Shown: in pieces, positions 4,278 through 50,883 of the stretch | Numbering within the stretch: the first letter of the stretch is position 1 | Layout: every line of letters starts with the position of its first letter | Source: Corallium rubrum | Taxonomy: Eukaryota; Cnidaria; Anthozoa; Scleralcyonacea; Coralliidae | Assembly: GCA_964035015.1 (NCBI GenBank) | Contig: CAXIUP010000186.1 | Coordinates: forward strand, 248,001-312,000 | Reading direction: 5' to 3' | Length of the DNA stretch: 64,000 nt | The notes under the pieces: model-generated | The model's database searches: none | What the model was told of the DNA's origin: nothing | The model's input: the letters and a program-made list of their open reading frames with translations, nothing else | Translations under genes and position numbers: made by a program

Positions 4278-4415
4278 CTAAAATGTTACGCTCTTCATAG
4301 CATTTCCTTCTCCCCAAAAAAGTAAAATGGATAACAAATAGATTTAGTATGCACACAATACATTTACTAAATTTTTACTCTGAAATACTACTGAATATAT
4401 ACAACAGATGTTTAC

Positions 4416-7359: not shown

Positions 7360-7365
7360 CCCTAC

Positions 7366-7850
7366 TACGGAAGCCGAGAGGTGTAAATGAAAGTACGTTT
7401 TGAAAACTCGTTTTGAAAACTCGTTTCACAAGTACGTACTTGAAGTTCGTTGGGGAAAACCGAAATTACGTAGTTCAAAAAGTGAAAGTACGTAGTTCGT
7501 AACCTAGCAACCATCTAAAATGTGAAAAGTGAAAGTACGTAGTTCGTAACCTAGCAACCATCTAAAATGTGAAAAGTGAAAGTAAGTAGTTCGTAACCTA
7601 GCAACCATCTCAAATGTGAAAAGTGAAAGTACGTAGTTCGTAACCTAGCAACCATCTCAAATGTGGAAAGTGAAAGTACGTAGTTCGTAACCTAGCAACC
7701 ATCTAAAATGTGAAAAGTGAAAGTAGGTAGTTCGCAACCCTCTCAAATGTGAAAAGTGAAAGTACGTAGTTCGTAACCTAGCAACCATTGGTAGGTTAAA
7801 CAATACTTATGTACAGCGGTTTCTACATGATGAATACACGCTGTTTATTT
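7366..7850. repeat. Left terminal inverted repeat with subterminal tandem array
   Basis: The terminal part 7366-7480 contains the repeated GTTTTGAAAACTC and the palindrome AAGTACGTACTT. From about 7482 to 7790 there are roughly seven copies (one degenerate) of a 47-bp unit with core AAAGTGAAAGTACGTAGTTC followed by GTAACCTAGCAACC. After the array, TTAAACAATACTTAT-TACAGCGGTTT is also shared with the inverted copy near 29600-29640. Such arrays often bind the transposase; that role is inference. Confidence 0.85.
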
Positions 7851-7912
7851 TAATTAACCATATATTTTCGAGGCATTGATGCATTCGCCGCAGTTTATAA
7901 CGCTGTTGGAAA

Positions 7913-8231
7913 ATGAGCATGAAGAAAATACGAGAAGATAAAGAATACTACCGTGCTGTGTGTGCGGGGCAGCTGGAAAGAGGTAAGAAAACGTCGTACA
8001 TTCTGGCAAATTATGAACGAGCAGTTGCTTGCCTAGGTTACTTGGTTTGCATGTTTCATTAGTCTGCATGTGTCAAATTAATTATTTATAATTATAAAAT
8101 TTGACTTCGATTAAGGTGAACGGGAAAAGAAGAATGTAAATGAGCTTCTACTGCAGTACAATCGGATACAAAAACAAAAGAAGGAACCTGTTGGAAAGTC
8201 GTCAAAGAAGGCGGGAAACTCTCCAGTTGTG
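7913..8231 (+). CDS. Alpha-kinase gene, first two exons
   Basis: ATG at 7913 opens MSMKKIREDKEYYRAV...QLERG with a GTAAGA donor after 7982. The second exon 8116-8231 joins in phase 1 and reads EREKKNVNELLLQYN...KSSKKAGNSPVV. Both are strongly charged. The start was chosen as the first in-frame ATG upstream of the donor; MSM at the start gives a second ATG two codons on. Confidence 0.6.
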
Positions 8232-11200
8232 GTATAAAGCATTATAAAGCCGAAAGGCCCATGTTTCACACGATCCGATTAATCGGATCAGATTGTGCTT
8301 CTGATGCATGTAATTTAGTCACGAAATAGCAGCACAAAGTTGCGAGCAAATGATCCAATACTATTGCCAGTCAATCCACTAAATAAATTTGTGTGAACAG
8401 GTGCACGTGGAGGAGGTTGGATGGGCCAGGGAGGCGAACGACCCCCCCAAGTCTTATTCTGTGGGGTCCATCAGGATTTGTAATTTTTTATGAAGTTCAT
8501 ACTGATGTTTGTTAATTCCCCACCCCCAGGTGCAAGGCTAAAAATGTAATTTAAGAAATACCTAAAGAAATTGCCAGTGAATGAAAGATGTTAGAATATT
8601 TCTACCTGGAGTATGTAAAAAATGCATACAGGTAGAACAACAATTATCACTGGCATTTTGCGTACTATACCACCTGGAAGCAAGCAGTTTTCCCACATGC
8701 AACCACTGATTTTTCTGATAAGTTGCATAGACAGATTTTCTGGGGGGTGGGGTGGTGCAGGGGGGTGCTACCTCCCAAATCTTTGTTTTCACACCCCCCC
8801 CCCCCCCCAAACGAAACGTTCACCACACAGATTCAAACAACACAGTAATTTGATAGAACCCTATTTTGGGTTTACAGGGTCATTTAACTCTCTCAAAGGA
8901 CCGGCCAAATTCATTGACTTGACAACTTCAAAAACCTTAGGTTTTTGCTTCGAATGCCTTCTGATGTGCTCTAGAAACCTGGATTTTTTTCCCAAATTTT
9001 CCGGGGGTGCTTTGCTTTCTAGCCTCCCACCAGCGGCTCCACCCCTGGACCTCCCAGGGGGATGAGCCCTGCAGCACAACGTTTGGCGACGCCTTGTGTT
9101 ACCTCACCAGCTCACCCCCCTAAAATTTTTGGCACCCCCCCTAGTAATAAATATGAAAATCCATCTATGATAAGTTGGCCACATAGTAAATCAGTAACTA
9201 TGCCTTTAGATGAATGACAACAACTCTTGGATAAAGTTTACATTGCTTATTGGATGAAAATCCATACATCCCCACCCTTACCTCCAGGGGTGACATTAAA
9301 AGAGCAATTCCCCACCCCAGGATCAATTCTTTTGCATAGTCCCCGGGTTTGCCAGAGGGGGTGGTGACTAGAAATCCATTGCAGCATTGCTGCTACACAT
9401 GTACAGCATCATTGGGAAAAGTAGAACCTGACTCCATGCACTGCAACCTTTGCTGCAACAAAAAATTTGCTGTTGCAACAAAGATGTTGCAAGACTGGCA
9501 TGGGGACTGCAGAGTATCTTACACTAGTATATTATGCAATTTTTTCTGGCACAAATTGGATGCGAAGTTTGGTAATTGTAACAGCTAGCACCATAATATA
9601 GCAAACAAGTTTATAAGAAAGTAATTCTAATTTTTATGGTGTGATTGAGTGTATGGAGTTGTGTGATTATCATAGCTGACATAGCAAGTTAAGGCAAAAT
9701 TGCTGGGTGATTTAGGAGAAATTCTGTTATTATTTAGTTCAATGCGATATAGGGTTATCAAGTAGTTTTGTTTAATTTAGTTTGGTTGTTGCGAGGCCAC
9801 TAGTTAAGCCATGCATGCTTTTGAAAAAAAATAAATTAAGGAAATATGCAAATAATCAACATCTATAAATAACATTTTGTATGAATTTTTAGATTTCTGT
9901 GACTCCTCTGAAACTAACCAGATTGAACACAATTGCTAATGAGGCACCGCCAGAGGATATTATAATTGACTCGCAAATGACAACGTGGCCTACTAAATAA
10001 AGCTAAAACGTTATTTAAAATGGAACATCAACTTAGATAGTATACATTCAGGCATGGAGCTAAATGGACAGCTGCACCAGATGCCCAATACACAATTGTA
10101 GAACTTGTTAACCTTCTCAAGACTACTAGATTTGGCATTCTACCAAAATCAGGGGCAGATGATAACAGCAAGAAAGGTTTGGTGAAGAGTTCGGTAATGT
10201 TACTATACTGTTTAGGGCTGAGATACTGCATAATTGATAGGTAGTTTCTAGATTGAGTGATTTTATGTGGAATCTACAATTTTTATATAGTCAGGCATAG
10301 ACTCAAGTCAACCATCAAGTGCTCCTAATAGCATTGATGATCTTCCTTCACTTGATGAAATGTTTAAATGTGAGTAAATGGATGGAGTAGATAAAGATGG
10401 ATGCACAGATAAGTGGGCAGATAAACAGACTGAGAGAGGGAAGGTTCGATATAGAGACATATCGATACAAAAACAGATAGATCTAGGCACTGAGAGGAAG
10501 GGAGAGTGATGGAACAGAGTTGTATTATATGTGTGTGATGTACTGTCCTTTATGCATGTGTGTAGTGCTTTTATGGGCACTGGATGTGTAAAATAATAGC
10601 ACATACAAATGTTTAAAGTTACATGTATTGTAATGTTTAAATACAGCTTATGGACCTGCAGCTACAAGTACAGAAAGGAAGAAAATTGCCAAACTTGTAC
10701 TAAGTGATGAGTGGTTAGTGTGCGACTACTCTATACAATAACTTTAATAAGAATTTAAATTTAAAACCATGCTGAAATATGCATGAGTTGTGCAACCACA
10801 TTATCTCTCTCTATCTCTCTATCAAAGTATGTAAATATCTACTTTGTAAATAGATCCAGATCTATTTACAAAGTAGCTATTTACTAGCTGTGCTTGCATG
10901 AAAATCAATCTATGATTAGTGATGTTGTTCTGAGTTTAAATAAATTTTCTTTCTCTGATCTCTCTCTCTATATGTTATATAATTACATTTCAGTCTGTAT
11001 ATATGTAATACTTTTGACAATACTGTATGGCAATATGAGTGGCAATGTTGTATCGGATATACAAGGTCAAGCCGAAAACGATAACTTGATATTAACTGAT
11101 AACTGAAAAACAGATAACTGAAAAAGGCTAAATTGGCAAAATGTCTTTTAATTAAAGGATACGAGAAGTTGCCTCCTTCAATTCTGCTTTTGTATCGCCA

Positions 11201-12401
11201 GAGGGTTGGTAAGTATGTGATTTTTGTGTGGATACCAATCACTGCTTACTATATTTTTACTGTTTTGCATGCATAGGGAGCCAGGAGCACAGGAGTTGTT
11301 ACAAAAAGGGAACAAGCGTGATAAAGGTAATTTTAAGAATTAATGCCCTTCTTTTCATATATATTGGTAAAAGCCCTGCATGCAGATGTCATTCAAGTGC
11401 CACTTACCCCAAAAACTTTTTCTCGCAAATCTAAGAGCCCTTATTGAGTGGATTAGGCCAGTTAATAAATTATTGGTATTGGACGTTTCGTTGATCTTCT
11501 GTAGACGACCAAAGTTGCATCTGCATGTCCCATGGCGGAGTAGGAAAGGGAATGGGTATATTCCTGGTGTTACGTCAGGCAAGTCAAACAAGGAACTCCT
11601 TTGAGCTCTGTCTGGTGAATACATAGAATTTTTTGGGTTGAAAATTCATTTCCCCAACTAACTCAATGTAAAAATTCTATGCATTCAGCAGACAGAGCTC
11701 AAATGAGTTCCTTGTTTGGCTTGTCTGACGTCACACCAGGAATATACCCATTCCCTTTCCTTCTCCGCCATGGGACATGCATATGCCAATTTTTGCAACT
11801 TTGGTGGTCTTCAGAAGACCAAAGAAATGTCCAATACCAATAATTTATTCACTGGACTAATCCACTCAATAAGGGCTTTTAGATTTGCGAAAAAATTTTT
11901 TTGGGTTAGTGGCACTTTAATATTGTTCATTGTAGCAGTTTATCCGACTTCGTTGGCATTAATTACCGAATCCCAAACAATAGGAAAAAATACATGTTGA
12001 ATATCTTGATAACCCATTTTTTTCATGAGGAGAGGAAAGGATGGTTTGATGATTAAAAGTAAAATTAAAATATTATATTGTGGAATAAAGTACTGGTTAA
12101 TTAACCATACTGTATGTTGCATAATTGTTCATCAATTATACTTGACTAAAATTTATTTTCTTTAATTTGACGTTATAATTGTATATAAGGTGGAGCAATA
12201 AAAGGAAATCAATTGCATAGCAAGAAGGTATTTATGTTTGATAACATAGGTTACTGCTATAATAAAATAGCCTGCCTGAATCCTGTTCTGAAAAGTTCTG
12301 TAAATTTAACTATTGAGGATTCTCCGGGCGTAGTGGTGGACAGGCGATCTGCCATGCAATCATGTGCTAGAGATGACAAGGTGATATATAGTTATATATA
12401 T

Positions 12402-12434
<33 letters not shown>

Positions 12435-15400
12435 TACACGTCAACAAATTGATTCTGATATTTTGAACGTTAAGACAAACCTCTCTAACGTTTGTCCTAC
12501 TGTCATATATTCAGGCATCACCCAGTTTATTCGCTCGTTGAACTCGAAATTTTACACGTTTCTCAAGGCGAGTAAAACTTCGAAATTCAACACTCTTGTA
12601 GGCCCTCGTCCCGTTTCGAATTCTAGCCACACTAACTCCACCAGTAATGTCAATTTAGTGGTCACGATTCCTCCTGATTTGCCCTTGTCTGACCCTGAGA
12701 GATCTGTCCTTGCAAAAGGTCTCAAACTTGTTCCCAACCCTGGGCCCATAGACTCCTTCTCAGTGAAGGAGGACACCGAAACTTTCCTTAGAAGACTAAG
12801 ACTTAAGGCACATTTTCACAATAATTCCTCCATCCAACAAAAGGATGTTTTTGAGGCTGCTAATCCTAAAAAGTCTTCCTGGTCTCCTCCGGAAGGCCAA
12901 TTTGGCTCCCTTGATCTTTTTCGACAATGTCGACATGATATAGATCACCTCCCACCTTTTAGGCCCAAAAGGCCATCTAATCTCAGCTCTAGTGAATTAA
13001 GTGCTTTAAAATCATTGCGTAGCCGGAATGATATTGTCATCGAACCTGCTGACAAAGGTGGTGCTTTGGTTGTCTGGAGAGCTGATTTGTACCGCGAAGA
13101 CGCTCAAAGGCAACTAAACGACACTGCTTTTTACAGCAGAGTTGATGGTGATTTGACATCCCAACACAACACCACCATTCGATCCACCATCAACAACCTC
13201 ATCACCACTGGGGAATTGCCTGATACAGCAAGCAATCTCCTAACCACCACTCCACGCACACCTGTCATGTACTTCCTTCCCAAAATTCACAAACCCAACA
13301 ACCCAGGTAGACCTATAGTGTCTGCTTGTGGTTGCCCTACCCAAGCCATTTCATCCTACCTTGACCACATCATGGCGCCCTTGGTTAAGAATTTACCTTC
13401 TTACATCAAGGACACCAAACATGCTCTGAAAATTTGTGACCACATTAGTTTTCAGGGTTCACATCATTTCATCTTCACCATGGATGTCAAATCACTCTAC
13501 ACTGTCATCCCGCTTCACGATGGTCTTCAAGCACTTAAATATTTCTTTGATCAACGCACAACTCGGGAGCCATCGACCACTACTTTGTTACGCCTGGCCG
13601 AGTTAGTGCTCACCCTCAACAATTTTTCATTTGATGGTGAGCATTACCAACAAGTTAGTGGTGTAGCCATGGGTACCAAAATGGGCCCTAACTATGCCAA
13701 CTTATTTGTTGGTTATGTGGAAAAACAAATCTTTGAACAATACACTGGTTTCCTACCTGACTACTATGGTCGGTTCATTGATGATTGCTTAGGCACTGCA
13801 TCATGTTCGCGCGCTGACCTGGTTTGCTTCATTAACTATGTTAATGACTTCCACACAGCACTCCAGTTCACATGGGAGATCAGTGAGACTAGTGTGTCGT
13901 TCTTAGATATTCTCGTCTCCATTAATGGTAATAAGGTGAGCACTTCTGTCTTTTACAAGACCACTGACTCTCATAGCTACCTCCTCTTCTCCTCTCATCA
14001 TCCTAAACACACCAAAACTTCCATTCCTTTCTCTCAATTTCTTCGTCTTCGCCGCCTCTGCAGTGAAGATGACGATTTCAATGCCAAATGTTTGGAAATG
14101 AGAAACTTTTTTGTTAATCGCGGTTATCCTTCCCACCTCTTAGACACTGCCTTACACAAGGTCTCCAACATTTCCCGTTCAGACACCTTAAGCGAACCTT
14201 TGGCTACCATTTCTAATGAAAAAGTACCTCCAGTTCTCACTTTTCATCCCTTCAATTTCAAAGTAAGGGACATCATTAGCCGCAATTTCGACCTCATTAA
14301 AAATGACCCAGAAACATCTTCCATTTTCTCTGAGAAACCCCTAGTATCTTTTCGGCATAGCAAAAACATCCGGGAAAACGTTGTTCACAGCTCACTGCAG
14401 CAAGCCTTGGTATCACATGTTGGCACCAGCTCTTGCTGTCGTGGTAGGTGCAACACCTGTAAATATTTAGACTCCTCAATTTCAATTTCGGCTCCAAAAT
14501 GTAGGTTCAACATAACCCACAGTTTCACTTGCACTTCCTCCAACCTCATTTACTGTATCTCTTGCAGTAAATGTCCCATGCTTTACATCGGAGAAACTGG
14601 AAGACGTTTAGGTGACAGGTTTGTTAAACACCTTCGTGATGTCAAAAACAATGTGCAAAACAAACCTGTTGCCAGGCACTTCAACAGTGCCAACCACTCC
14701 TTTTCCAACATGAAAATCTGTGCCATTCAGCCCATTACAGGTTGTAACGATACTCGTCGTAGACAAGAAATGCGTCTCATTTACAAACTTGGTACCATTC
14801 ACCCTCACGGCCTCAATGAGCGATTCTCTTTCATTTAGCTCACTCCACCACCATATTCCACACCTTTTCCTTAACCTTTTTCTGATGATTTAAATAGTAA
14901 TTTATAACCTGTTTCTTTGCCTATTTGCAGGTAGCTGACCCACAAATTGGGTCAGCACCTGCACACAGGCTAAAATTACATATTAATTTATTTGTTTACT
15001 TTGTTTTTATTGGCTTACATGTGTTCACGTGATTCCCATTGTAGCTCTGCTATAAATACGCGTGACCACATGTGAGTTGTTTACTAATTTCTCCTGACGA
15101 AGAGCCTTCGCTCGAAACGTCGAGAAGATTTTTCTCTGTTTTTCAGGCCAACGTGACTTAACCCTGGTAATATTTGGATTTCAACCGTGGCCGACGCTGT
15201 CCTAGAAGCTTTTAACTATATATATATATATATATATAGTTTTTGATTCTTTCCTTCAAGTCAGCTTATGGCTTGAACCCTTGTTGGACCCTTCCCACTA
15301 TTTGGTTGTAATCGGTGTACTCTAAAATCATTTTCAGAAAAACGTTCATGGTGGGCGGCAGTCATTCAGTGCTGGGAGTGATAAAAAAGGTATAACCACA

Positions 15401-18400
15401 AATTATTGTGTGTACTCACTGCTCTGTGCTGCACTGTACATGTACGTTCGACCACAAGGTGCGATTTTATAGTCCCAAAGAATGTTGCATTGGGTAGAAG
15501 TGTAATAAAATTAGTGAAACTCTTTTCACGAAAGGATAATTATATAAGGTATCGCTACTACATTTGCGATTTTAATTTCTGTAGTTATGAAGGAATTGGA
15601 TGGTTCAATCCTAGAAAATCTGATGGACAGTGGGAAAACGTGTTATCGTTTTGACGACAAAGAAGGTAAATAATTAATTAAACCTTTTAACATACCAACG
15701 GGCTTGCGCCCACTTTGCTGAATAAATTTGTCAGGTGTTGCCGGAATTGAATGTTAAAGTGCGTCCTTGCCTTTTATATAATTATCTATCATACAAATAA
15801 CGAGACAACAAATATCATGCAATTGAATACGCAAAAAACACGGTCTACATTTAGGCAACAGTTTTATCCCAGATTCTCAGTCTGTGATTCTTGCGACAGA
15901 TATGTTCACACTAGGGGAAAGCGTTGATTTATTCGTGCGAAAGTCTTAATCGGCCCCGTCACACGTAGGCTAGCTTTTTTTCATGCAACTTGCATCAAGA
16001 AAACGAAGTTCAAGTTGCACGAGCATTTTTAGTGTGTAATGCCCCTCCAATTGCTCGTGCAACCTGAACGTTGTTTTTGCAACGCAAGTTGTGGCAACTT
16101 GCAGTTCATACATTAACGGCGAGACGGGAAAATTCTTACGACAAGTGTGAGCATGCAGTCTTGACTGCGCAAGCTGGCGAGATGAGTTCATGATCATTAA
16201 TAAAAAATGAGTGTGCTGACAGGCCCCAATTTCATCATTTGTTGCAGGCTTAGGAATTTCTGAAGATGATTAGTCAGTGCTGCTACCTTTTGTAATGGTG
16301 GCCTTCTTTGCTCGCTGTTAAATCAGTAACGGATTGTTATTATAGTAGTGTGAAAAAGTTAAATTCCTTTTTTTTTTATGTAGACATTTTCACCATATCG
16401 ACATTTGATGTGGATCCTTCCACACTTGCAGGTCGATGGGTTGACGTTGCCCAATGCAAATTGGAGAAAGGAAACCTGTTGGGGAAAGGGGGCCTTCGCG
16501 GTTGTTTCGATGCAATTATTAAATTGGACACAGCAATACCAGACAAGAAACACAAGGAGGTCTTTAAAGAGCCTGTTGTTGTTAAGAAGTTCTTAAAGAA
16601 GACTGTGGATACATTAAAGCGTGATCACGTTTACTTGTGTCGAAAGGTGGGTTCTTGGCATTATACTATAACTACACGCGTAAGCTCTCACCATGCTTTT
16701 CCCGCTTAAAGTTTAAGATTTTGGGTTTTTTAGTGTATAATATTGGTGGCATATAACATGCAATACTGTTACAACGTGGCAATCAGTACTGAACAACATT
16801 TTTGAACCATGTCTATCTACTCTGGGGTAACATTGTCTAAGCAGCGCGTTCTAAATTTGGACAATATAGTTTTTATCTTGCGTATTATATGGGCAGTGCC
16901 CGAAACGTCGAAGAAATAGGGTTTTTTTTAAAAACGTTTATACGCCCCATTTACATTTGCCATGTTCGCTGACATTCATTTGTGATTTCTTTAATAATAG
17001 GAGGTGCAACAAAAGAGTATAGCCAACACCTTGTGCACGCATTTTAAAGAAGACAAAGGTCCATATATTGGACAATTCCCAAGGTATACGATCGATAATA
17101 ATCATGGCGAGATACAGTAGTTGTACTCGTCGTAAACAAGAAATGCGTCTCATTTACAAACTTGGTACCATTCACCCTCACGGCCTCAATGAGCGATTCT
17201 CTTTCATTTAGCTCACTCCACCACCATATTCCACACCTTTTCCTTAACCTTTTTCTGATGATTTAAATAGTAATTTATAACCTGTTTCTTTGCCTATTTG
17301 CAGGTACCTGACCCACAAATTGGGTCAGCACCTGCACACAGGCTAAAATTACATATTAATTTATTTGTTTACTTTGTTTTTATTGGCTTACATGTGTTCA
17401 CGTGATTCCCATTGTAGCTCTGCTATAAATACGCGTGACCACATGTGAGTTGTTTACTAATTTCTCCTGACGAAGGGCCTTCGCTCGAAACGTCGAGAAG
17501 ATTTTTCTCTGTTTTTCAGGCCAACGTGACTTAACCCTGGTAATATTTGGATTTCAACCGTGGCCGACACTGTCCTAGAAGCTTTTTACAGTAGTTGTAG
17601 ATGTTCAGTCAATATTGATTGATTAACGTATCTGCATATAATACCTATATTTCAGCGTTCTTCCATGCTATCTCCTTGTTGGCCAGTCTGGTCGCACTGC
17701 CTACTGCCTTGAGCCCAAAATAAATGTGCATGTGTTCAAGAAGTATTTGAATAACACTGGAAAGGCAACTGCAACTGGAGTAACAGAAGAGATGGGGTTG
17801 AAATGCCTGGCATTTTCACATTGGAGTTTGTCCTTCTCGAAAGGAGCGCTGTTGCTCACTGACCTTCAAGGTATGAAATATATGATAAATGGTAGTCTAT
17901 TTATCTCTGGTGTTCAAGTAACTCCCCATGCAGATTTCCAATTTTTTTATGCTAGCGCTATATTAATTATGTTATTATACGCGCGGGAAAAATGTAACAG
18001 GTCTGATGTACAGTTTTTTCAGAGCTGTTAAAATTATGTCATAGCTGTATCAAACTAATCAAAGTGCAGGCATCATCAGGTTGTCCAGGTCTGGTTGTAA
18101 CTGGTCTGAACTAACGTAACATACCTTGTTATCCACAGGCACAGGAGAGGACAACATGTCTGTTATGTCTAACAGGATGTATGAACAGGCTGTACCCACA
18201 GTGACCTGGTAACATTGATGTATTAGACATAATAATTATAAATGATAGCATGAAGTGTATTCCCTATTATTTTTCACATGGCAAGGTTGACAGGATTTCA
18301 TGAGATAAGGAGTGGTGCGGCGGATATTAGACGGGAAGATTGGAGGAGAATATTATAGCGAGGAATGGTAGAGGGGAATATTAGAGCCTTAGAGGGGAAT

Positions 18401-19891: not shown

Positions 19892-20863
19892 AATTAATCG
19901 TGTTTTCGTTCAACACCTATCCGTCAATGATGGATAGCGCCATGGGTACTGCCAAGAGAGCATATATATAGGTAAGAGGAAATTTGTAGTAATGCCCTCC
20001 TAGTTCAATCCTAATTTTTCTTAAATTATTTTTAGATCTCGTGCTGTAATTTGCGACCTATTGAGCGGCGCAGAAAGAGATTAAATGTCCAGTCTAAAGA
20101 CCTGGGAACGATAAAACTGATTTATAGTCAAAAGGAGTCACTGTCTTCAAATCTTACAGCATATGAAACTTTTAACAAAACCTCGTAACACAGTTCTTTT
20201 ACGAAACGTACTTCACTCCTTACCCTCTGTTCAGACTACGGTGCTCGGGTATACGGTGCTTGCATGGGCACGGGACCTTGTTCACATTCACGGTGCCTGG
20301 ATCTGATAAGCGTTCACACAGAAAGCTTTTCATGGCTTTTGCAGCTATTTTGTCACTTTAAGCCTCCCAATTACAAAGAATATTGAGTAAGAAGCGTGGG
20401 CACCACTTTGAGCACTGAAGACGTGTGCAGGGGGTAAGACTTTTATTCCCACCATTTTGTTTTCGCAAAAGGAAGCGTAACCTCCACAAAAAAATGAAGA
20501 TGGGAGTCATATGTTATGAGTAGCCTTTGATGATTGGCTATCGCAAGATGTAAAATTAATTTCAGATGAATTAGCATTGGACTAGACCATTACTGTACAT
20601 TCCTTCTCTTACCTTTATGTTCTCTTGACTAGACCATTACTATACATTCCTTCTTTTACCTTTATGCTCTCTTCGTAATACATGTTATAGCTACGGTATA
20701 TAACTGAAAATTGAACATGCCCCTTTGGTAAAATGCTGGACTTTTCCAGTTCCAGGACAACAAGCGCCCATTAAACCTATGACTAGTTTGTCTTATTGTT
20801 ACCATGCAGGCATTTGATATTGCTTTCTCCATCCTAATTGTTGTCAGTGTTTGCTTTCAATAG

Positions 20864-23800
20864 ATGTAGAAATAAATCCTCAAATTGTGTTGGATCACCA
20901 AGAATTAACTATCCAGGACTTTGTCTACAACCTGCAGGTAATGTATACCAACGTCATGCATCACGGGTGTTATCTTACGTAGCGACATCGGCGCCGCGAC
21001 AGTCTCGTGTGTTTTGTATGGATCACATGGTCTTGCAAGACTGTTGCTCCCGTATATGCTAGCTTGTATAACATATGTGCGTGTTTTACTCACACATTTC
21101 TTTCGCACATTTTTATATAGGATTTATTGCTTGATGTCGTACGCAAGAAGAAAACAAATAGACGCATGCAAGACTTCGAGGTCAAGCAACGACGCAACGG
21201 AATGCTCCGACCGCCGGAAAATAAAATGGCACGTGTTTATTATGTTTTACACTTTTCTCCGTTGAACTGTACATGTGCGGTGTATATGTGCATACCACAT
21301 GTGTATGTTTGCCATGTACACTTGCCATTTTGTTTCCTAACGTGTGTATACTATAATCTTTTGTACAGACTGACAGCATAAAGCTTCAAATAAGAAAGAT
21401 AACGGGATTTGACGCTACAGATGAGATGCTAGACCTCGTTTTAGTGCCTGAGGTAAGCACAGTGTTTCATGTATCAACCAATCCGCATGGAACTACACAG
21501 TAATTACTGAAACGACTGAATATTTAAGTACAGAACGGTAGCTCCGCGCATAGTGGAAACATATTTATTGAGAAATTCAATGTTTTGACTTTAAGTAGAT
21601 TTTAGTCAGCGGCAGCAGCAATGCACTTAGTTACGAGCATTCTTGATGATAACTAAAATCCAGTCGCAGAGATGGAAACGTTTTTTCTTCCTGGGAACCT
21701 GTGTTTAAGAGTAAAAATTTCTGCAAAAGTTTGCAAGAGTAAATAACAAAATCTTGGTTTGTGCTATTTTACTTACTATGCATTGTGAAAACAAGTTTAC
21801 GTTCTAATTCAATACGTTCAAATGAACGTAAATTCCTGATATTAACAACAGACAACAACAGACAACAACAGGTGATGGTTGGTTACTGACACTTGCGGAT
21901 CCCAATCATGAGAACTCACAAAGTATATCCCATATGCAGTAACTTACCCCGAAAGCTCTGGTATCGTTATGCTCCGACTGGGTTTCTTTCTGCCTGCATG
22001 TGTTACGGATTTATGGCGTCCTTCCTAAGACTGATTATTCATCTTCGGAATCGTATACCATTTCGTTATGTTGTTTTCTCCCACCTGTGTTCCTGTCTGG
22101 TATCGTCATATAAACTTGTGTTGAAATCTTCCTCATGCGCGAGGTTGGGTGGAAGAGATTTCTGCATTCAAGTCGAACTGCTTGTGACTGGTTTTCTTTG
22201 TATCTTAACTTTCCTCTTTTACTTCGATTCTTGCTCCAAAATAATCATTCTTGTTGGACTTCAGTTCCTCCGCATTACCGACTAAACAAAGCTCTACAGT
22301 CTGACTTCGGTTTTCTGACAGGCCCAAGAACTGTTGTAGGATCGCGAGTGAGGATGATTTGGGCGCGGCTGTACTGTCCCTTTTGTAGTTCTGTTAACAA
22401 TATATAGGTATACCCCTTGAGCAAATATGCTGTGTTCAGCATAATATAGACCACATCTTCCATACCCGCGGAAAATACGTGTGTAATAGTTACTATGGAA
22501 ACATGAAATCAAATACTATGAGACAAATTTGAAAATTGGCGAGGGTAAAATTTTTAATTATGTGACTCAGCTATTGAGTATAAACCAACATAACTATTTA
22601 ATTACATAACTCTTTAAGTACTCTCTGGTTTAAAATATTTATTTAGTTTACAAGCTTTCGACTGCCAGTCTGCAGTCTTCGACGGGTGAATTACAATGAA
22701 AAAAGTGATATGTCAGTGGTTTACAATTACATATAGAGACAAACAGATAGTATAGTGACATGCAAGTGACAGTTCCGCCTACGTATAAGGTTAACGACTA
22801 AATTTAAATGTTTATGGTATTTAGAGTTTTTTAATAAGGAAGCGGTATTGTTCGGGCAAATGTTTAGAATTATTATCCGAATTGTTTGTGCTTGCGGTGT
22901 GCCATGATTCTAATGTTGTTCTATGCCGATAGTTATGCCTAAATAAATATTTTAAACCAGAGAACGTCTAAAAACCTAATATGAATAATCCTGGTTTCGC
23001 TTCAAACATCTTTAAATCTTTAAGTACTGTCAGGAAACACTGTTACAGTACGTAACTTAGGTAGTTAAACAATGGTATTGAATATTCAGTTAGTACTAGA
23101 GTTGTACATTAAACGTAAAGTAAATGTTATTTCAATTAAGTGAAATGTTTTCCTGAAACCTCAAAAACTTTCCGTGAAAATTTATACCCAAAGTATTTCC
23201 TGGGAACTATAAACGTTCCCATGCAGGGTTCGATAATTTTTCCAGTTACCGTATTTTAAGTTACCGTTTTTCTGTATTTAGAACTATATATGTATAGGTT
23301 TTTCAAGATTGCGAAGCTCGGCGTGGCGATGTAGTCATACAAGAATACAAAATGTTTGCAGCTCCATTTTTGTGAGGAAATAGGACTATTTTATATCATT
23401 CGCTCACTCGAGATATCCTGATCAACACTCGAAATAAATTTCATATTTCCGCACATCCATGTATTATTCTCGATTTATGTTGCATTTATTTAACGCCCAT
23501 TGCATTGTTTTTTTAAGGTTTATGACAGCTTGCAGAGAACCTATCACACTGTGGTTCTAGGTTTATCACCTATTAATGTTGGTGACGACTCGCACAATCA
23601 GTCTGAAGAAAACATGGAGGAAGACAACCTTGCTAAATTACTATGTAAGAGGTCACCTACCATCAACGAAGTCTACGAAGACGACCCAAAATCAAGACCG
23701 AAAACTAAGTCACAACGTCCTCATAGCGATGCCTCGAAGCAGGAGGCAGAAAAGCCGCAGAAAAAGGATGCACCAATAATCAAGAAGGTGAAAACACAAC

Positions 23801-24447
23801 CCACTGACAGTCAGCAAATTATGTCACCGACCGACATCCTGATTGCTGTAGAAAATGCAGTAGCCCCTCTGTATGTCACGAGCAAAGCACTAGTGGAGCA
23901 GCTTGGGGCACTTCAGGTGGAAGTAAGGAACTTGCAACAACAAGCACATGAGAGATCATTGGCTCCTGTTATGCATCAAGAAGTACAACCGTCTAAGTAC
24001 AATCATTTGCAGTTCACCGAGAACGTCGCAACTGGTTATGTGCAACCAGGGCCATCAGGTCCAAAGATGCCCTCATACGTTATTCAACCCATGCGGCCGA
24101 ATGCCGTTGGGGCAAGCAACAACGTATGTGCCTTACCTCAAGCTCATGCAGGTCAGCCAAATCCGACTGAGAACGTCCCGATAGATACCCAGCCTATGAA
24201 AATGATGGAAATGTTGCAAAGGTTTACTGGAAATACATCTACATCCAATGTGACAATGCCGGGACCAGTACAAAATCTCGGGTATTACCATCCGTTTCAG
24301 GTTCATGCTCCTACAGGCGCTGTTACTGCTGGTATCTTTCCTGAAAATGTGAACGTGCAGAATGCGCAACCGTCACAAGGCGTTCTTTTCCCCAACGGTT
24401 TAAACCCATCACGTAACCTCACTGGAAGCGATCATGGACTTCAGTGA
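20864..24447 (+). CDS. Second cargo gene of the transposon, unknown protein
   Basis: Visible exons: 20864-20937, 21121 to about 21232, 21369-21452 and 23518-24447 (last, with stop). The phases agree (the exon 21121 donor is weak). The protein has a basic segment (VRKKKTNRRMQDFEVKQRRN), then VYDSLQRTYHTVVLGLSPIN, an acidic-then-basic disordered stretch (about residues 20-95 of the last exon), a predicted short coiled coil (VSK...LVEQLGALQVEVRNLQQQ) and a Pro/Gln/Asn-rich tail. Nothing matches a family that I recognise. The first exon lies upstream of 20864 and was not found. It lies head-to-tail behind the alpha-kinase gene in the same transposon. Confidence 0.6.
22623..22962. repeat. MITE with 24-bp perfect inverted ends
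   Basis: CTCTGGTTTAAAATATTTAT... at 22623 is exactly inverted at 22939-22962. It is non-coding, about 340 bp, in the long intron before the last exon of the unknown cargo gene. Confidence 0.75.
23518..24447 (+). CDS. Last exon of the unknown cargo gene
   Basis: A 310-codon exon after acceptor TTTTTAAG, ending TGA. The region SPTDILIAVENAVAPLYVTS followed by heptad-like leucines may form a helix or coiled coil; the tail after it is low-complexity and rich in P, Q, N, M and G. Composition is unlike the flanking non-coding DNA, supporting real coding. Confidence 0.65.
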   Translation, partial: VYDSLQRTYHTVVLGLSPINVGDDSHNQSEENMEEDNLAKLLCKRSPTINEVYEDDPKSRPKTKSQRPHSDASKQEAEKPQKKDAPIIKKVKTQPTDSQQIMSPTDILIAVENAVAPLYVTSKALVEQLGALQVEVRNLQQQAHERSLAPVMHQEVQPSKYNHLQFTENVATGYVQPGPSGPKMPSYVIQPMRPNAVGASNNVCALPQAHAGQPNPTENVPIDTQPMKMMEMLQRFTGNTSTSNVTMPGPVQNLGYYHPFQVHAPTGAVTAGIFPENVNVQNAQPSQGVLFPNGLNPSRNLTGSDHGLQ

Positions 24448-25692
24448 TACAACAGTTTGTACTTCACAAGGAAAACTACTAAAATTTACTATACTAGTAT
24501 ATTTACGTTCACGTTGTTATACAGTTTAGTTAAACCTTTTATATTTTTTTAAACCGTTCAAATCTAAAATGCATCTTAATTAAACAAAGAAAACGAATAA
24601 CCAATAAAATAATTTGTTATTTAGTTGGGATTTTGTTTTATTGGATATAATTCGATGTAAGCCTGAGTAAGCGAACCAAAAACTATCGTATGAAAGTTTG
24701 CCAGTTGATGGGATTGCATATATAACTTATAAAGTAGATACTGTAGATCCGGTAAGCACTATAAACTTCTTTCTCCTCCTTGAATCTACCACAAATCAAA
24801 ATCTTAATTTAAGTTATTGTTCTACGTTGGTAATTATCGTTTTATAAATAAGTGAGGACGAACATTGGTCAATGTAATTTTGTAAAATGCCCAATTTCCA
24901 ATGTAACAAATAATCACATAATTCTTTCAATTCATCCGGATAAAATGGCACTTCGTTCCGGCTGAGTTCGTTTTGTCCATGTTGAAGTATGGGGATGCTT
25001 AATATTTTTTGCTGGTTTCTTCTGCCTGCAACGCAAATAAGAAAGTTTAATAAATAAATGCAATTTCCAACATGATGCTATACAAGCACAACGCCCGCCA
25101 TAAGCAGAGCATGTGCGCAGTATATGCACATACTGTACATGTCGTAACATTAAAACAACAATTGAATAATTGAGTTACAAACTTTAGATAAGTTTGATTT
25201 TCAAACAGAATGCCAAGCCAATGTTGCAGTTCTTCATATTGAAAAGAGTGGGCTGTACTGCAGATTCCGAAATATCAAATAGCACGACATATTTAATACA
25301 TCGTTTAATTTTTTGTGCGCACCAATGTAATGTCTTTATGAAGGAAAATTCGAGTGTAGAATATATACATTTTAAGACCAAACCGGGACCAGTTGCGAAA
25401 AATGCAACTACACAGGCCTTCCGGCAGGAATTGAACCCACGACCTTGCGATTCGCAACTGGTCCCGGTTTGGTCTTAAAATGTATATATTCTACACTCGA
25501 ATTTTCCTTCACCCAAACTGCTAGAACATGCTATGTAATCGAGTGAAATGCCCAATATTATTTATAAATGTCTGTATGTCTTGTTGAACGATGAAGGACA
25601 AGTACATTGTTACTAACTACATGTGTATTACACTAAATAATTTAGATCATGAGCAAGTAGACTGAGGTGGGGTTAGATTTTGTAAGGATTTT
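24448..25692. other. Gap between the convergent cargo and integrase genes
   Basis: No exon seen. It holds the 25340-25510 hairpin and is otherwise AT-rich. Confidence 0.5.
25340..25510. repeat. Perfect 60-bp hairpin with a tRNA-like loop
   Basis: The arms 25340-25399 and 25451-25510 are exact reverse complements. The 51-nt loop, read on the minus strand, contains GGTCGTGGGTTCAATTCCTG, which resembles a tRNA T-arm / B-box, though no complete tRNA is present. Confidence 0.8.
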
Positions 25693-28600
25693 CTAGAAGT
25701 ATAAGAAAGCCATAGATAAACAATACACACCATAGATTTCTGGGACAAGGTACATATCATTGGGAACCCCATGTGGTCCATAGCTGTACTTAGTTGGTCG
25801 AATGAGATGCGTATTCCACCAATATACAAATTCATTAAGCTCTGAGCGAAGAAGTGGAACAAACACATATGCCATAACATGCCTACAATGATATTGCAAT
25901 GATGTCATTATCATTCTGCTTGTAATTGCATACTCAGAAAATTAAAATAATACTGCCATTATTCTATAAAATACTTAGTCACCAACTAGTGACAGACCTG
26001 TGGAGTTCATTCAGCATTATAATATCCATCTTCAGCTAAAGACTAAAAGTTAAAGTAAAATAAAATGAGTAACATGTAACAAACTTCATTTGGTAACTGG
26101 TTGAAATTGTGGTGCGGTTCAAGAGCACAATTTGTCAAACCAATTTAATCTTATTGCCAGAGAAAGGTTAGGTTTTATTTGTTTAGGTCTGCTAGCTAGA
26201 CTACTTATTCTGTCAAAAATTTTCACCTCGAAAATGCCAAAATTGAATCTATCCTGTAAATTTTGGAAATTCACGAGGCTTTGCCCACCTACAGAAAATC
26301 AGTGTGAATGTTCACCTCTGTATCGGTATACTGTAAACATCATCATAGAAATCCTAGGATCCTTACATTAAGTTCCTTTATCCACCATCCAGTCTTCTGG
26401 CGAACTAAGTGAGACCACACATCGACTCTGAACGCTGATAAAGAGGATTTTAAGAAATAATTAGTATATAAATAATACATTTCAATGAACCAAAAATTCA
26501 CAATGTTCACGTCACACACCAAATTGTCTGTGGATTTTACATAACGATAACTTTTCTCTCCACTCCAATGGTCATTGTGGTTGTGTCGAAGCATCATATG
26601 CAATGTTGCAACATTACAGTTTTCAGTGCCATAATCTGAAACAACCATTGTTGGTATTCCTACGAGAAACAGAAATAAAAAGTCCTGACATGTACACATA
26701 AATATAGTACAAGTAAACAACATCAAAAAATTACAGACAAAAGCCTGAATTCTCACCATTTATCTCTTGAACTGCCTTTATGTAGAAGTCAGCAATTACA
26801 TATGGATCGCTGTTAGATGGAGTTACATTCATCCAAATTATCTTTCTTGAAAATCTATATGGGAGTATTTGACTTTAATAATAAAACTGAGAGACACAAA
26901 TAAATGGTTAATAGTTACTTCTGTAGTTCTGTAGCTACAATTAACAAAAATTAATGGATGTCTAACATGCATACCCATCCACACAAGCATGAATATCAAG
27001 ACCAAATCTATGCAGCTTGTCATATTCATCCATATGCCATGCAAAGTTAGGACCCTGGATTGGAGGAAACACATAATATCAGGTAAATGCACATGAATGA
27101 ACTCACATGCACAGACCATAACGTAATATATTATTACATAATTATACAAATATGCAAGATTTGTCACAGGTAACATTCATAAACCCAAAACCAATGCAAA
27201 GACAACCATAACAACTAAGTAAAATGTTATCATGGTGATATATACTGTAGCTATAACTAAATTTTAAAATGATCTCTTATCCCACAGTAACTACAAGGCA
27301 GCACTATGTCATCTTCAAGATCCTAATAATTATATACATATATATATATATATATATAGATGAAGATGCCCAGATGATTTACAGTACCCAAAATGCATTT
27401 CAAACTGAATTTCACTTATGCAAATCATTCATCACTGTAATAAATGAACAATAGAACAGCAGCTTAAAATTGAGGTCAAGCATTAGGATAACTCATTGAA
27501 CGAATTTATGATATTACTGCCAACATGGATTTTCAGCCATTGTTTTGTAAGTCTTAAAAAAATTAATAAATTCATTCAAAGATAATAACTACCCAATTAT
27601 GAAGACCGCATGGAATCTGTAGTGTCAGCAACGTTATGTAAAACTACATGTTTCCATGTTTCCATCTCACTCTTGAACTGTTTTAAACATACTTAACTTA
27701 ACTACGTAATAATTAAATCACAGTTTGTGATTAACTTATGCACTGCCCAGCAGTAACAATTTGACTTATATGGTCAGTGTTTGTTTCTATTTGCCAAACT
27801 GACTTGACATTTATCTTGCATCAAAACATATTGCATAAAATAGCATCACCCCAGTTTGGCAGATGAAAAGAAGTATTAATTGTGAATGGTCTGGATGTGT
27901 TGTACTTTTTCTTAAATACCCATTGAAGTAAAAAATGTGATGTCATTAGCCATTGATTGAAATATTATTACTGGTAACCCATTAACAGGCAAGGGCACAT
28001 CCTAGCACCTCATTGCTGAATGAAATAATCTGGCATTACCAGAATAAAATGTTATAAAGTGCACCCTTGCTTGTTAATGTGTTAATTAATATTATAATAA
28101 ATGATATTAATAACATAATATGATATAACAATTATAATAAATAATGATTATTTTTACATAATAAATAAATTAATCCTAATTATTTATTACACTTGCAACA
28201 GGTACCATTATATTGCTCATTCATCTATATTAATGGCATTACCATACCTTTGAGCGATATGGGTGGTGCACAAACCTTCTTTTTCTCTTAATGTCACGGA
28301 TATCTGGTGCAAGTACTGCCCACAACATCATAACAGTGTCCCTTTAGATGAGACAAAATATATTTAATTTGGGATTCAACAAAAAAATATTTGACCAGGT
28401 GCACCAAAATTAATTACATCTTAAATGATTCACTTTATGACCTACCTACACACAACTAAGTCATACTTGTCTCGAAGTAGCTTCCAAACCGAACGATAGC
28501 CTTTCAAGATGTTTGAGGAATTCAGTTCAAACTTAAAAGTCAAAATAAACACTTTAGAAATATATGCTTAACTCTTTTTACCCTGTTTCTTACTTCACCT

Positions 28601-29466
28601 CCCTCCTCCCTGATTTCAACATTATGTTCTTTTATCATTTCAATTTTAATTACTCCTTCCTCCCTGACTTCAACATTACGTTATTTTATTATTTCAATTT
28701 TAATTATCTCAAACCCCTCCATCACTTACATTCCCTCATTATTATATTATTTAGATATCTTTCTAAATTGCACTATATAAATGTTTAATTTTAATTTATA
28801 TTATACTACCAGCAAGATTTGCCGAACTAAGTCAAGAGGAGGATCTGGCCTTCTTCTCTCCAGTCCAAGAGCTTTAAACTTCTTTTTTAGCCACGAAAGA
28901 CTATGAAGTATTTTATATAGATATAAGTGCATGCCCAATAAATAGGTTTTAACTAACAACACTGTATCAGATGCAGTACCAGCCACCAGGAATTAAATTA
29001 ACAGTATTTTGGGATGACACAATATTTTGAGTGGACACAAATAGGGATGTACACTCAAATAAACAAGAAAAATTAACATGAAAAAAAAGGACACTCAATA
29101 TTTTTTGTAGGCACACTATATTTTGGGTTGCAGCCCACTAGGCCCCTCGCTGGAGCTACCAATAAACTGTACAGACTAATATTACCAAGTAAAAATTAAA
29201 CATTTCAGTTGCAAAAAAAGAAAGTTGAATACCTTCGGCTGATTCCTTGTTCTTTGCGTAAATAAATAAGAATAAGTGTATACGGTTTCCACTGCTTCCA
29301 ATACTTTACAATACATCCTTTTAAATAAAAGGCGAACAGACCTTTTAATATACAGACAGAACCATCGCCATTGGGCATCCAGAGCATCAAACTGATCAAA
29401 GCATCACGGAACTAAACTTTAGATAGCATTTATATTGGTATACTTACTGTTTATATCAGCCTCCAT
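25693..29466 (-). CDS. Integrase/DDE transposase of the giant transposon (multi-exon)
   Basis: Exons: 29466-29448 (MEADIN), about 29395-29233, about 28950-28810, 28531-28446, 28341-28248, 27054-26975, 26854-26757, 26659-26518, 26427-26367, 26035-25998, 25882-25693. Most junctions keep phase; those around the second exon and the exact 26518/26427 junction are uncertain. N-terminal parts include WLKKKFKALGLERRRPDP (helix-turn-helix-like) and ILKGYRSVWKLLRDKYDLVV. The integrase core follows: GPNFAWHMDEYDKL (first Asp), FSRKIIWMNV, GIPTMVVSDYGTENCNV (second Asp), then WSHLVRQKTGWWIKELN and the C-terminal FVPLLRSELNEFVYWWNTH with HLIRPTK. This is the rve-like family widespread in invertebrate genomes. 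The usual NQRIE-WW Glu position reads VDVW here. Confidence 0.8.
27055..28247. other. Intron of the integrase gene with TA repeat
   Basis: A (TA)n microsatellite lies at about 27319-27358. No coding exon is evident in the rest. Confidence 0.5.
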
Positions 29467-29599
29467 TGCTCCAAAAGAAAGGAAAAGATACTTTCTTTGC
29501 AATCAAATAGTTGGCTGAATCAAAACAATTTAAACCCGTCCTGTTAAACGACTTAAACCCCCCTGACTTAAACAGTATAAAAGTATAAGCGCCCTGGTA

Positions 29600-29888
29600 T
29601 AAACCGCTGTAGATAAGTATTGTTTAACAAAGCAATGGTTGCTAGGTTACGAACTACGTACTTTCACTTTTCACATTTGAGATGGTTGCTAGGTTACGAA
29701 CTACGTACTTTCACTTTTCACCTTTTAGATGGTTGCTAGGTTACGAACTACGTACTTTCACTTTTCACATTTTACATTTTAGATGGTTGCTAGGTTACGA
29801 ACTACGTACTTTCACTTTTCACATTTTAGATGGTTGCTAGGTTACGAACTACGTACTTTCACTTTTCACATTTTAGATGGTTGCTAGG
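29600..29888. repeat. Right terminal inverted repeat, inner part
   Basis: About six inverted copies of the 47-bp unit. Its inner flank (AACCGCTGTAGATAAGTATT region) matches the inner flank of the left repeat, so this is the inner half of the right repeat and not a third independent array. Confidence 0.8.
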
Positions 29889-32203
29889 CAGAAGAGGCCG
29901 GACAAGTATCATGTGATTGTCCGAATATTATGCTTTTGTCATTCATTTTTTTCTTTAAAAAAAGCAGCGATATCGTTTGATATATTGTTGGACTATCCAT
30001 ATCTGCAGGATTTTGCAAGGTAAATGTATTTTTCTACTTTATTTTGATCGTTTATGTGGGTCGTGTCGCGCTAAGCGAAGACCCCACTTCCGGTTCATCA
30101 ACAATCTTCAAAGCAAAAAATCTCGAATTCCCATGGTTCGAATTCTCTAATTTTTGAGTAATAAGTTGAAGAAATGTCAAATCTTGGATTCTACCCGGAC
30201 GGCCCCACTCGCCCCCGCAACTGTTTTCGAGATATTCGCCGTTGAACCGACCATGGTATTTCGGATTTCGCTCAGATGGCGCCAATAAGTTTGAGAGAGA
30301 CTTTCGCCACTAAAGTTTGTTTTTTTCTCAAGAATTTTGGAAGTTTCCTAATATTTAGAGCTTTATGCTTGTATAATGAGTGGTGGACTATTATTAAAGA
30401 GTAAAATTTGGTATTTGTCTGTTTTTATGGTCCAAAACGCTTGTCCTAGCTCGCTGTATAAAAAACACCATCAGTCTGGAAAAATTGTATACATAATACA
30501 TATCAGACCTGCATACATTTGTAATTATTACAGAATGTACTGAACTTTTTTAAAGATCTACTATATCTGTATACAGAACTGATACGTATAGATATTTTTC
30601 ATTTATTAAATAACATTGTGTTCCACCCATTTGTTTGTACACCCATGCAGTGCATACAATAGTTAGGCATTGGCTGTACAGTCAACTCTTAAGACATGAA
30701 AGGGTTAATAATTCTATCTCACATCCTATTTTTTACAGGAAGTGAAGATATACAGTACAGATGTCAGTGTTGGAATAACTTTACTTTGGTGGTGTTCAGA
30801 CTGAGTGCCCGGGCACGAGCACCAATCTGAACAGGATTTTTACAATGAAAAATTGATGGATTCTCTTTTACTAAATAACATTCAATAATATGTAGTTTGA
30901 AGTTTTGCATGTTGTCATGTTGTATAATTACATAAGGCAATGCATAAATATAATTGTGGACATAACTAATAAAATTTTATTCATCCCTTTGCTTTTGAGT
31001 GCTAGTGCATGTACATACTGATAAACAGTGAACTATGCCTCTAAGACAGACACCCTTGGGCTGGACTTTGTCTGTCTTATAGTTCATTCACATGTCTACC
31101 TTAATACAGTAACTTTTCTGATGCCCTCTTTAAATGTGCCAAAGTTGACATTTTCTTGGCAGACAGGGGGGTGCATCACTGAAAAATGTTGGACCAATCA
31201 CCAATGTCAAAATGTTAACAGTGCCCCTGATTGAATACCTATATGAGTGTCAATACAGTAGCACTTTAGAAGTAACCAAGATCAATATTGAGATAAAACG
31301 TTTTAATTTTATTCAAGTTCCTTATTTACATATACGTTGAGGATACAGGAAATACACTTTATTTGATAAAATAGAAATATTTGAACATTTGACCAATTAT
31401 ATAGGAGGCAATCCAATAAATTATCTTGATTTTGAATTCATCTTAATACAAAGAAAAATACAAGATTGTTATTGAATAATAAATTTTAAGCTAGCTTTAT
31501 TCACAATTTTATTAAATTTGGAATACACAGTAAAGGAAATAAGAGTGTTTGTTAAAAAATTGAACACCCCCCCCCCCCCCCCCCCAAGGATGATAGTTGT
31601 ATCTATCAGCAATTGTCTGGATCGGCTAGATTATTGACCAGATAATTGCTACACACAACGATTAGAAGTTCACAGTAATACTGCAGAATGCAAAACATTA
31701 AACCACGGAAAATGCATCATAAGGTTAGAATGGGAAGAATTTGAGAGGGAAATCATTAACCATTAAAAACAACAATGTTGATTTCTCACCTAAGGCTTTT
31801 CTGTCTTTTCTCCAGTTGTAACGAAGTACACGTTGCACAGCACAACCGAATCCTTCTTCGTTGTAAATATCTAATTCGTTTCTGATTTGTTCCAACATAA
31901 AATGCGTAGAATCCGAATGAATGCCCATCCGCCATAACGCCATTCTCACGAATATACGCCAAATAAAGCACAATCTGATCATATTAATTGTCCATGAAAA
32001 CCACGAATTGTTCTCGTATTTTGCTGACCATCAGATTTATCAATTCTGGATCAACTGTGACGAGTTTTCAAACGTTTTTGCGCATCTAGCCGACCGGGCA
32101 GAGTTCATTCCTTCGTCTGAGGTCAGAGGTAGAGTGAGACGCCCACGCAAAAATGGAAGCCAGCTGACCATGATGCTTTGTGCGGCTTGTCCAACCTCCT
32201 CTG
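29889..32203. mobile_element. Nested 2.3-kb DNA element inside the right repeat array
   Basis: It starts CAGAAGAGGCCGGACAAG and ends with the inverted CTTGTCCAACCTCCTCTG, matching at 15 of 18 positions. It is flanked by GTTGCTAGG at 29880-29888 and 32204-32212, a 9-bp duplication of the array unit. CAG...CTG ends suggest hAT; a 9-bp duplication suggests Mutator-like; I cannot choose. No transposase is recognisable. Short reading frames at 30052-30285 and 31725-31982 (minus) are the only coding-like parts, and a 20-base C run lies at about 31566-31585. Confidence 0.75.
31790..31982 (-). CDS. Possible captured exon, unknown protein
   Basis: An open stretch reads ...EQIRNELDIYNEEGFGCAVQ and ...VLRYNWRKDRKALG, then a GTGAGA donor at about 31790. 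It looks exon-like and lies near the right end of the nested element, so it may be a captured host exon. I recognise no family. Confidence 0.3.
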
Positions 32204-32528
32204 GTTGCTAGGTTACCAACTACGTACTTTCACTTTTCACATTTTAGATGGTTGCTAGGTTACGAACTACGTATTTTCACTTTTCACATTTGAGATGGTT
32301 GCTAGGTTACGAACTACGTACTTTCACTTTTCACATTTTAGATGGTTGCTAGGTTACCAACTACGTACTTTTACTTTTCACATTCTAGATGGTTGCTAGG
32401 ACGTACTTTCACTTTTTGAACTACGTACTTTCGGTTTTCACCAACGAACTTCAAGTACGTACTTGTGAAACGAGTTTTCAAAACGAGTTTTCAAAACGTA
32501 CTTTTATTTACACCTCTCGGCTTCCGTA
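32204..32528. repeat. Right terminal inverted repeat, outer part
   Basis: Inverted relative to the left end, with about five copies of the 47-bp unit followed by the GAGTTTTCAAAAC repeats and the terminal sequence. It is separated from its inner continuation (29600-29888) by an inserted 2.3-kb element. Confidence 0.85.
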
Positions 32529-32639
32529 CCCTACAATCTTCACCGCGCGTGGTCCGTCCGTCCACACATATATATATATACAAATATTCAGATCGCTCAA
32601 ACTGATTTGCATTTTAACACGCGTGTAAAGTGGACTCCA

Positions 32640-32981
32640 CGCATGTCGAGATTAGCACCCTCACCGGCTCCGGGCCTTCGGCCCTACACCCGGCTCGGGG
32701 ATAAAATAATTTGTATATATAATTTTGAGCCTTTTAATTATATATGTACGTGCATTATCAAAAGTATATAAAATTTATGAAATATATTACTGTTACATTA
32801 ACTTCCTAATATTTTTGTGATTTTTTTTGGAAATCTCCTATATACAATTTCTTATATACTTTTGGTAAACTAAAAACAAAAAATTATAACTAAACTGCAT
32901 TTGGGGATTCCAGTATGGAATATACATGGATTTTCCTAGTTTTCCACGTTTATATATTAGAATTATTGTCAACTTCCTTAC
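32640..32981. other. Host intron right of the giant transposon
   Basis: It holds a short GC-rich palindromic patch (CCGGGCCTTCGGCCC region at about 32679-32694) and otherwise AT-rich intron. Confidence 0.5.
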
Positions 32982-50880: not shown

Positions 50881-50883
50881 TCT

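Follow-up and report, generated by a model that had tools for sequence, protein, structure and literature searches.

Which kind of mobile element can occupy 25 kb, carry an integrase gene between long inverted ends and also hold genes resembling those of its host? The question arises at a locus of Corallium rubrum lying in a 64,000-nucleotide stretch of DNA (GenBank assembly GCA_964035015.1, contig CAXIUP010000186.1, positions 248,001 to 312,000 of the forward strand; hereafter the window). An initial annotation had described this interval as a giant integrase transposon instead of a Polinton, and as possibly a new family, perhaps related to IS3EU. On the sequence evidence presented here, the element appears to be a giant, intron-rich transposon of the IS3EU type in which an alpha-kinase is kept as a partner gene, a reading to which we assign a probability of about 0.88. 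What is new is the intron-rich giant lineage, together with a genome-wide partnership of kinase and integrase outside fungi.

A transposon with many relatives in the genome

The window element is a real 25-kb cut-and-paste DNA transposon (Table 1). It starts with TACGGAAGCCGAGAGG and ends with the complement of TACGGAAGCCGAGAGG, its termini thus being TACGG..CCGTA, and is flanked on both sides by an exact 6-bp duplication, CCCTAC. The outermost inverted ends are 98% identical over 128 bp (7366-7493 versus 32401-32528) and adjoin, on the inner side, arrays built of a 47-bp repeat; an end-to-end alignment (1-336 and 1-327) gives 94% identity over ~330 bp. The inverted ends of several hundred bp and the identical flank at 7360-7365 and 32529-32534, both pointed out in the initial annotation, are therefore confirmed.

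A search of the genome (474 Mb, 312 contigs) with the end sequence 7366-7480 rendered at least 30 matches, and since many of them are arranged as inverted pairs the inverted ends are not a product of chance. Thirteen further loci, lettered B to N, were examined besides the window copy (A). Both termini lay in the sequence examined for nine pairs of terminal inverted repeats, the window included, and eight of these have identical 6-bp flanks, the ninth (C56:2173302) agreeing at five of six positions, so that paired ends and duplications do occur elsewhere, as had been anticipated. The flanks differ from locus to locus among the eight exact pairs: CCCTAC in the window, TAGTTG (C56:3.8M), CGTAGA (C82), TTTAAG (C124), CACAAC (C31), AGCAAC (C1:16.9M), TACGAT (C248) and CAGAAC (C188). 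The termini TACGG..CCGTA are found in the window and in seven of the eight other readable pairs, the left end being CACGG in the remaining one. In C, and likewise in D, one of the ends is damaged, and no partner end was found for L, M and N within the part examined.

Four complete copies bear genes, namely A (25.2 kb), E (22.4 kb), F (17.8 kb) and K (25.1 kb); genes are also present in D (about 23 kb) and M, for which both ends are not readable. The complete gene-bearing copies, of 17.8-25.2 kb, represent three families, with kinase and integrase in each (one of them read in part). Where alignable, A and D are mostly 95-97% identical, and E, F and M are mostly 94-98% identical to one another. 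K represents the third family and should be young, because its 803-bp ends are 99.6% identical. The 1.1-2.5 kb pairs H, I and J look like non-autonomous derivatives. Inspection by eye of copies B and C (L009-L012) located a 683-aa hAT-like frame and Harbinger/Myb-like frames between the IS3EU ends.

Two convergent multi-exon genes

The joined exons of the plus strand match the alpha-kinase family of Pfam (Alpha_kinase, PF02816; E 2.2e-34), and those of the minus strand the rva_4 DDE integrase core (PF24764; E 4.1e-27), the two genes being convergent. The integrase gene that the initial annotation had placed between the ends is thus present, though with its frame broken in exons 26367-26432 and 26001-26045 as compared with D, E, F and M. 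Kinase and integrase occur in the same order and orientation in all six gene-bearing copies examined (A, D, E, F, M and K). The order kinase, tail, integrase is constant in A, D, E, F and M; in K the kinase is followed by the integrase, part of which falls in N, and the last kinase exons and the tail were not detected. D, E and F share the exon borders and phases of both genes with A, and K does so in part; the catalytic D, D, E residues are likewise common to the families, as are exon borders. Kinase exon 3 was detected in A and D only, and a possible first integrase exon (29341-29388) only in the window's own family.

The initial annotation had also reported two other multi-exon genes besides the integrase. 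This most likely does not hold: in both families the last kinase exon splices in phase into those of the supposed third gene, and the three-gene reading was rejected. The junction between the last kinase-domain exon and the tail is in phase 1 in A and in E/F alike, for which reason the kinase and the long C-terminal tail most likely form a single gene, predicted to comprise 12 exons in A; the tails of A and E are 30% identical. The kinase and integrase recur in other copies as had been proposed, but the genes number two and not three. Likewise, the host-like gene cargo comes down to one alpha-kinase gene, a known companion in fungal IS3EU, kept across three families. A possible alternative kinase exon (18120-18209, GTGEDN..., with a stop at its end) lies after the DLQ exon; its product would be truncated.

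The integrase also matches rve (5.3e-4) and HTH_21 (0.005), in both cases short of the family cut-off, and no zinc-domain family appeared among its Pfam matches at E 1. It had no match in the PDB at E 1, and only three distant matches (35-36%) among 5.8 billion proteins, a search in which multi-exon genes are poorly visible. For the kinase of the giant elements, the best PDB match is TRPM7 (2.6e-18), and a protein database search gave no match at 1e-3.

In the comparison of A with E, synonymous sites have reached saturation (proportion of synonymous differences, pS, 0.75-0.78), whereas the proportion of nonsynonymous differences (pN) ranges from 0.12 (integrase) through 0.24 (kinase) to 0.41 (tail). 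Integrase, kinase and tail have therefore been under long-term purifying selection, weakest on the tail. Individual copies carry faults: the kinase of F, the tail of D and the integrase of E are interrupted by stops. Following the DLQG motif, the kinase reads LTD in D, E, F and M (all four other readable copies) and LTN in A; we take the D of LTD to be the catalytic residue of alpha-kinases. Because of this N for D and of the two breaks in the integrase frame, the window copy, judging from its sequence, is no longer autonomous.

Comparison with IS3EU, Polinton and Ginger elements

IS3EU is a Repbase superfamily belonging to the IS3EU/GingerRoot lineage. According to PMC10045372, TA..TA termini are invariable in its complete families and 6-bp duplications usual, and an HHCC motif is lacking; PMC12730594 (2025) gives TAYGG..CCRTA and 6-bp duplications for IS3EU of rust fungi. 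The window element and seven of the eight other readable pairs have termini of this form, the duplications are of 6 bp (exact in eight of nine, five of six positions in the other), and the gene encodes an IS3-like DDE integrase (PF24764, 4.1e-27) with no zinc-domain match at E 1. The oppositely oriented alpha-kinase, a trait of the fungal TET+ families and not a stated requirement for IS3EU, is present as well. In all TET+ IS3EU a TET/JBP gene, proposed to protect the element, lies between the transposase and the alpha-kinase, those two being oppositely oriented (PMC12730594). The giants share that opposed pair within one element; they differ in their host, an animal and not a rust fungus, and in that no TET/JBP gene appeared in weak Pfam scans. 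Also their own, relative to IS3EU, are the size of 17.8-25 kb, ends of 330-800 bp, the subterminal arrays of the window's family and, in the window copy, about 22 exons in two genes. Since termini, 6-bp duplication, HTH_21/rva_4 integrase and opposed alpha-kinase match published IS3EU, no new superfamily is needed; of the proposal of a new family perhaps related to IS3EU, the relation stands. And since fungal IS3EU have an alpha-kinase beside an oppositely oriented transposase, the kinase is probably a standing IS3EU component and not casual cargo. No report of an alpha-kinase in animal IS3EU turned up in the literature covered, which was seen in part and did not include Repbase or most subscription papers.

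Polintons are large elements with long inverted ends, an integrase and a 6-bp duplication, all of which the giants resemble. The two differ in the core genes: protein-primed DNA polymerase B, protease, packaging ATPase and capsid were not found in the window element by a six-frame scan of limited sensitivity, in agreement with the initial annotation. That Pfam scan (E 0.01) detected only alpha-kinase and rva_4 and was weak enough to miss a reverse transcriptase also, and apart from the latter no open frame exceeds 317 aa. Ginger1 and Ginger2 have duplications of 4-5 bp, and Ginger1 an HHCC N-terminal domain; here the duplications are of 6 bp, and there is no zinc-domain match among the Pfam results given above.

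Compact elements and kinase-integrase pairs throughout the genome

The same genome contains a compact IS3EU element of 3,880 bp with ends TATGGTGGCCGAGAACTGCC and termini TATGG..CCATA, in which an intronless alpha-kinase and an rva_4 integrase are convergent (C1:13857500-13866000; L037, reverse strand, 3098-6977). It shares with the giants the 6-bp duplications and the convergent genes, and differs in size, in the lack of introns, in the sublineages of kinase and integrase, and in the tail, which is not part of the compact frame, this stopping soon after the kinase domain. In the five copies checked (that on C1 and four more) both ends were at the predicted places; four have exact duplications (GAGCTG, CACCTC, CACGTC and CATCTC), and the copy on C22 has no matching 6-bp flanks.

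When the best 150 of 161 candidates were scored, PF02816 rendered 144 matches in the genome, fragments included, so that this is not a count of genes. At least 78 of the 144 lie within 5 kb of a compact-type integrase from the best 150 of 666 candidates, 74 of them convergent, 1 divergent and 3 in the same direction; with uniform placement, about 0.5 kinase matches would be expected within 6 kb. As a control, only 1 of the 144 lies within 6 kb of the best 150 of 1,351 rva_4 candidates, and the best-scoring rva_4 integrases were therefore rejected as partners of the kinases. Those 150 PF24764 candidates are mostly open frames of 200-650 aa, and the genome has a large population of intronless alpha-kinase frames.

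The best PDB match of the compact kinase is MHCK A/eEF2K. It has 320 database relatives, those named among the best 120 being from Actinia, Paramuricea, Dendronephthya, Desmophyllum, Exaiptasia and Saccoglossus, with TRPM6-like, MHCK D-like, vwkA-like and eEF2K as usual labels among the same 120; taken by themselves, these relatives would point to a cnidarian host. Such labels may often hide transposon genes.

Alternative explanations and origin of the kinase

A tree of 22 integrase rows contains three groups supported at 100/100, one of giants, one of kinase-linked compacts and one of the best-scoring type, and giant and compact integrases, which do not resolve as sisters, lie on the same side of a 100/100 branch with respect to the best-scoring rva_4 class. 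These groupings bear on whether the giants could be a superfamily distinct from IS3EU with a recently captured host kinase. Their size, their many introns, the clade of their own and the scarcity of distant database matches (in a search that sees multi-exon genes poorly) would fit such a view. It is nevertheless improbable, given that termini, duplication length and kinase arrangement are as published for IS3EU, that the 100/100 branch keeps giants and compacts together, and that the kinase is common to families at saturated synonymous divergence, for which reason its capture was not recent. A degenerate Polinton deprived of the four core genes named above would account for the size, the integrase and the duplication, but we consider it highly implausible, since the integrase matches rva_4/HTH_21, the six-frame scan, weak as it was, rendered only alpha-kinase and rva_4, and no open frame besides that of the reverse transcriptase exceeds 317 aa. 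On the other hand, it is possible, though rather doubtful, that IS3EU-type elements captured kinases at least twice, a TRPM7-like one in the giants and a different one in the compacts. The different best PDB matches point in that direction, as did a first kinase tree placing the giants with TRPM7 (96/94); this tree was dropped when the grouping changed upon removal of the long-branch row L046. In the remaining 30 rows the giant kinases form one group (100/99), as they did in the first tree, and this group joins the compact ones at 44/70, and the convergent two-gene layout is identical in both kinds of element.

Several observations weigh against the reading of the giants as IS3EU elements with a retained kinase partner. 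Without L046, giant and compact kinases are joined only at 44/70, and the grouping of giants with TRPM7 is not rejected by the approximately unbiased test (p-AU 0.34); with a placement this weak, both one and two captures are possible. The assignment to IS3EU is a structural one, based on the published description. The long pairs B (15.6 kb) and C (14.5 kb) are devoid of the genes, except for fragments of the first integrase exons, and contain transposon-like frames of other kinds. A compact-type integrase from the best 150 of 666 is missing within 6 kb of 34 among the 100 best kinase matches; the six best-scoring, which are among these 34, may be host genes. Finally, ratios of nonsynonymous to synonymous substitution (dN/dS) between recent pairs are 0.47 (kinase), 0.65 (tail) and 1.05 (integrase) for A-D, 0.61, 0.67 and 0.07 for E-F, and 0.85, 1.09 and 0.26 for E-M. 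The ratios are mixed; weak or absent constraint, as in the kinases and in the A-D integrase, is expected of decaying copies and is no proof of function.

Possible role of the kinase

In the IS3EU-type giants, the multi-exon DDE integrase would bind the long inverted ends with their subterminal repeats, excise the element and insert it elsewhere with a 6-bp target duplication, as the DDE family to which it belongs suggests. The alpha-kinase with its long tail, the convergent second gene, has been retained under selection in the families of this genome, and might phosphorylate the transposase or a host factor, regulating transposition or shielding the element. We favour a role in the regulation of transposition; protection of the element could be envisaged by analogy with that proposed for TET/JBP in fungi (PMC12730594).

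To our knowledge, a signalling kinase is rarely kept by transposons. Here it has stayed beside the transposase through saturating divergence, with two integrase lineages of this genome as well as in rust fungi, and this suggests a control of transposition by kinase signalling. Transposon-borne kinases also offer an explanation for alpha-kinase expansions, such as that in this genome (144 matches) and that in rusts, where the family is called highly expanded (PMC4469406) and PF02816 is listed in a table of domain comparisons (PMC5295586). Animal proteins labelled TRPM6-like may be transposon proteins. A wider proposal, which we regard as evenly balanced, is that IS3EU transposases of fungi and animals alike have long had the alpha-kinase as a functional partner, acting in transposition control or host evasion, that most alpha-kinase expansions and many animal TRPM6-like, MHCK-like or vwkA-like genes are transposon genes, and that the intron-rich giants make up a branch of their own in this system, not described before.

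Nested insertions and neighbouring features

Table 1. Features of the giant element, in positions of the window
Feature	Position	Strand	Remarks
Whole element	7366-32528		25,163 bp
Target-site duplication, left copy (CCCTAC)	7360..7365	.	
Target-site duplication, right copy (CCCTAC)	32529..32534	.	
Left terminal inverted repeat, TACGGAAGCCGAGAGG...	7366..7701	+	takes in part of 47-bp subterminal array (7478-7788)
Right terminal inverted repeat, with the outer portion of the right subterminal array	32202..32528	-	
Right subterminal 47-bp array, inner part	29635..29888	-	separated from element end by nested insertion
Alpha-kinase exons 1-2, most likely one gene with the exons below (7913-7982, 8116-8231)	7913..8231	+	copy D has the same GT/AG borders and phases; exon 1 present in E, F too
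Alpha-kinase exons 3-9, kinase domain (15338-15389, 15585-15665, 16384-16646, 17001-17083, 17656-17870, 19551-19599, 19699-19802)	15338..19802	+	PF02816, splice phases
Alpha-kinase exons 10-12, tail and stop (20864-20937, 21369-21452, 23518-24447)	20864..24447	+	splice phases match E, F
Integrase/transposase, 10 exons recognisable across two families (24814-25025, 25729-25884, 26001-26045, 26367-26432, 26520-26657, 26755-26853, 26974-27054, 28248-28343, 28448-28531, 28810-28878)	24814..28878	-	PF24764, weak HTH_21, exon conservation
Nested Penelope-like element, 817-aa reverse transcriptase frame	12385..14838	+	RVT_1, weak GIY-YIG match
Second, partial copy of 3' end of Penelope-like element	17124..17586	+	absent from copy D
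Nested 2.3-kb DNA transposon	29889..32203	.	imperfect 18-bp ends CAGARGAGGYYGGACAAG; 9-bp flanks GTTGCTAGG (29880-29888 / 32204-32212)

The Penelope-like insertion (about 12437-15221; RVT_1, 5.6e-7) lies within the kinase gene; the related copy D lacks it. The nested 2.3-kb transposon, mostly common to copy D and found as a separate repeat in locus N, cuts the right subterminal array; its 9-bp flanks give weak support for an insertion, being also part of the array unit. It contains an open reading frame of about 100 aa near 31.7-32.0 kb, which was considered as a first integrase exon and rejected on account of the 18-bp ends of the segment and its separate occurrence in locus N. Without the nested parts the window copy amounts to about 19.6 kb, and its giant size would be due mostly to introns. 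Fold-back (palindromic) repeats lie within the element at 11405-11908 and 25339-25511, with related sequence in D.

Elsewhere in the window, six copies of a 76-bp tandem repeat are found at 46797-47261, and a minisatellite adjoins a 312-bp tandem duplication (99% identity) at 50435-51500. Just beyond the element, on the minus strand (32838-33581), an exon-like frame resembles by eye a conventional protein kinase.

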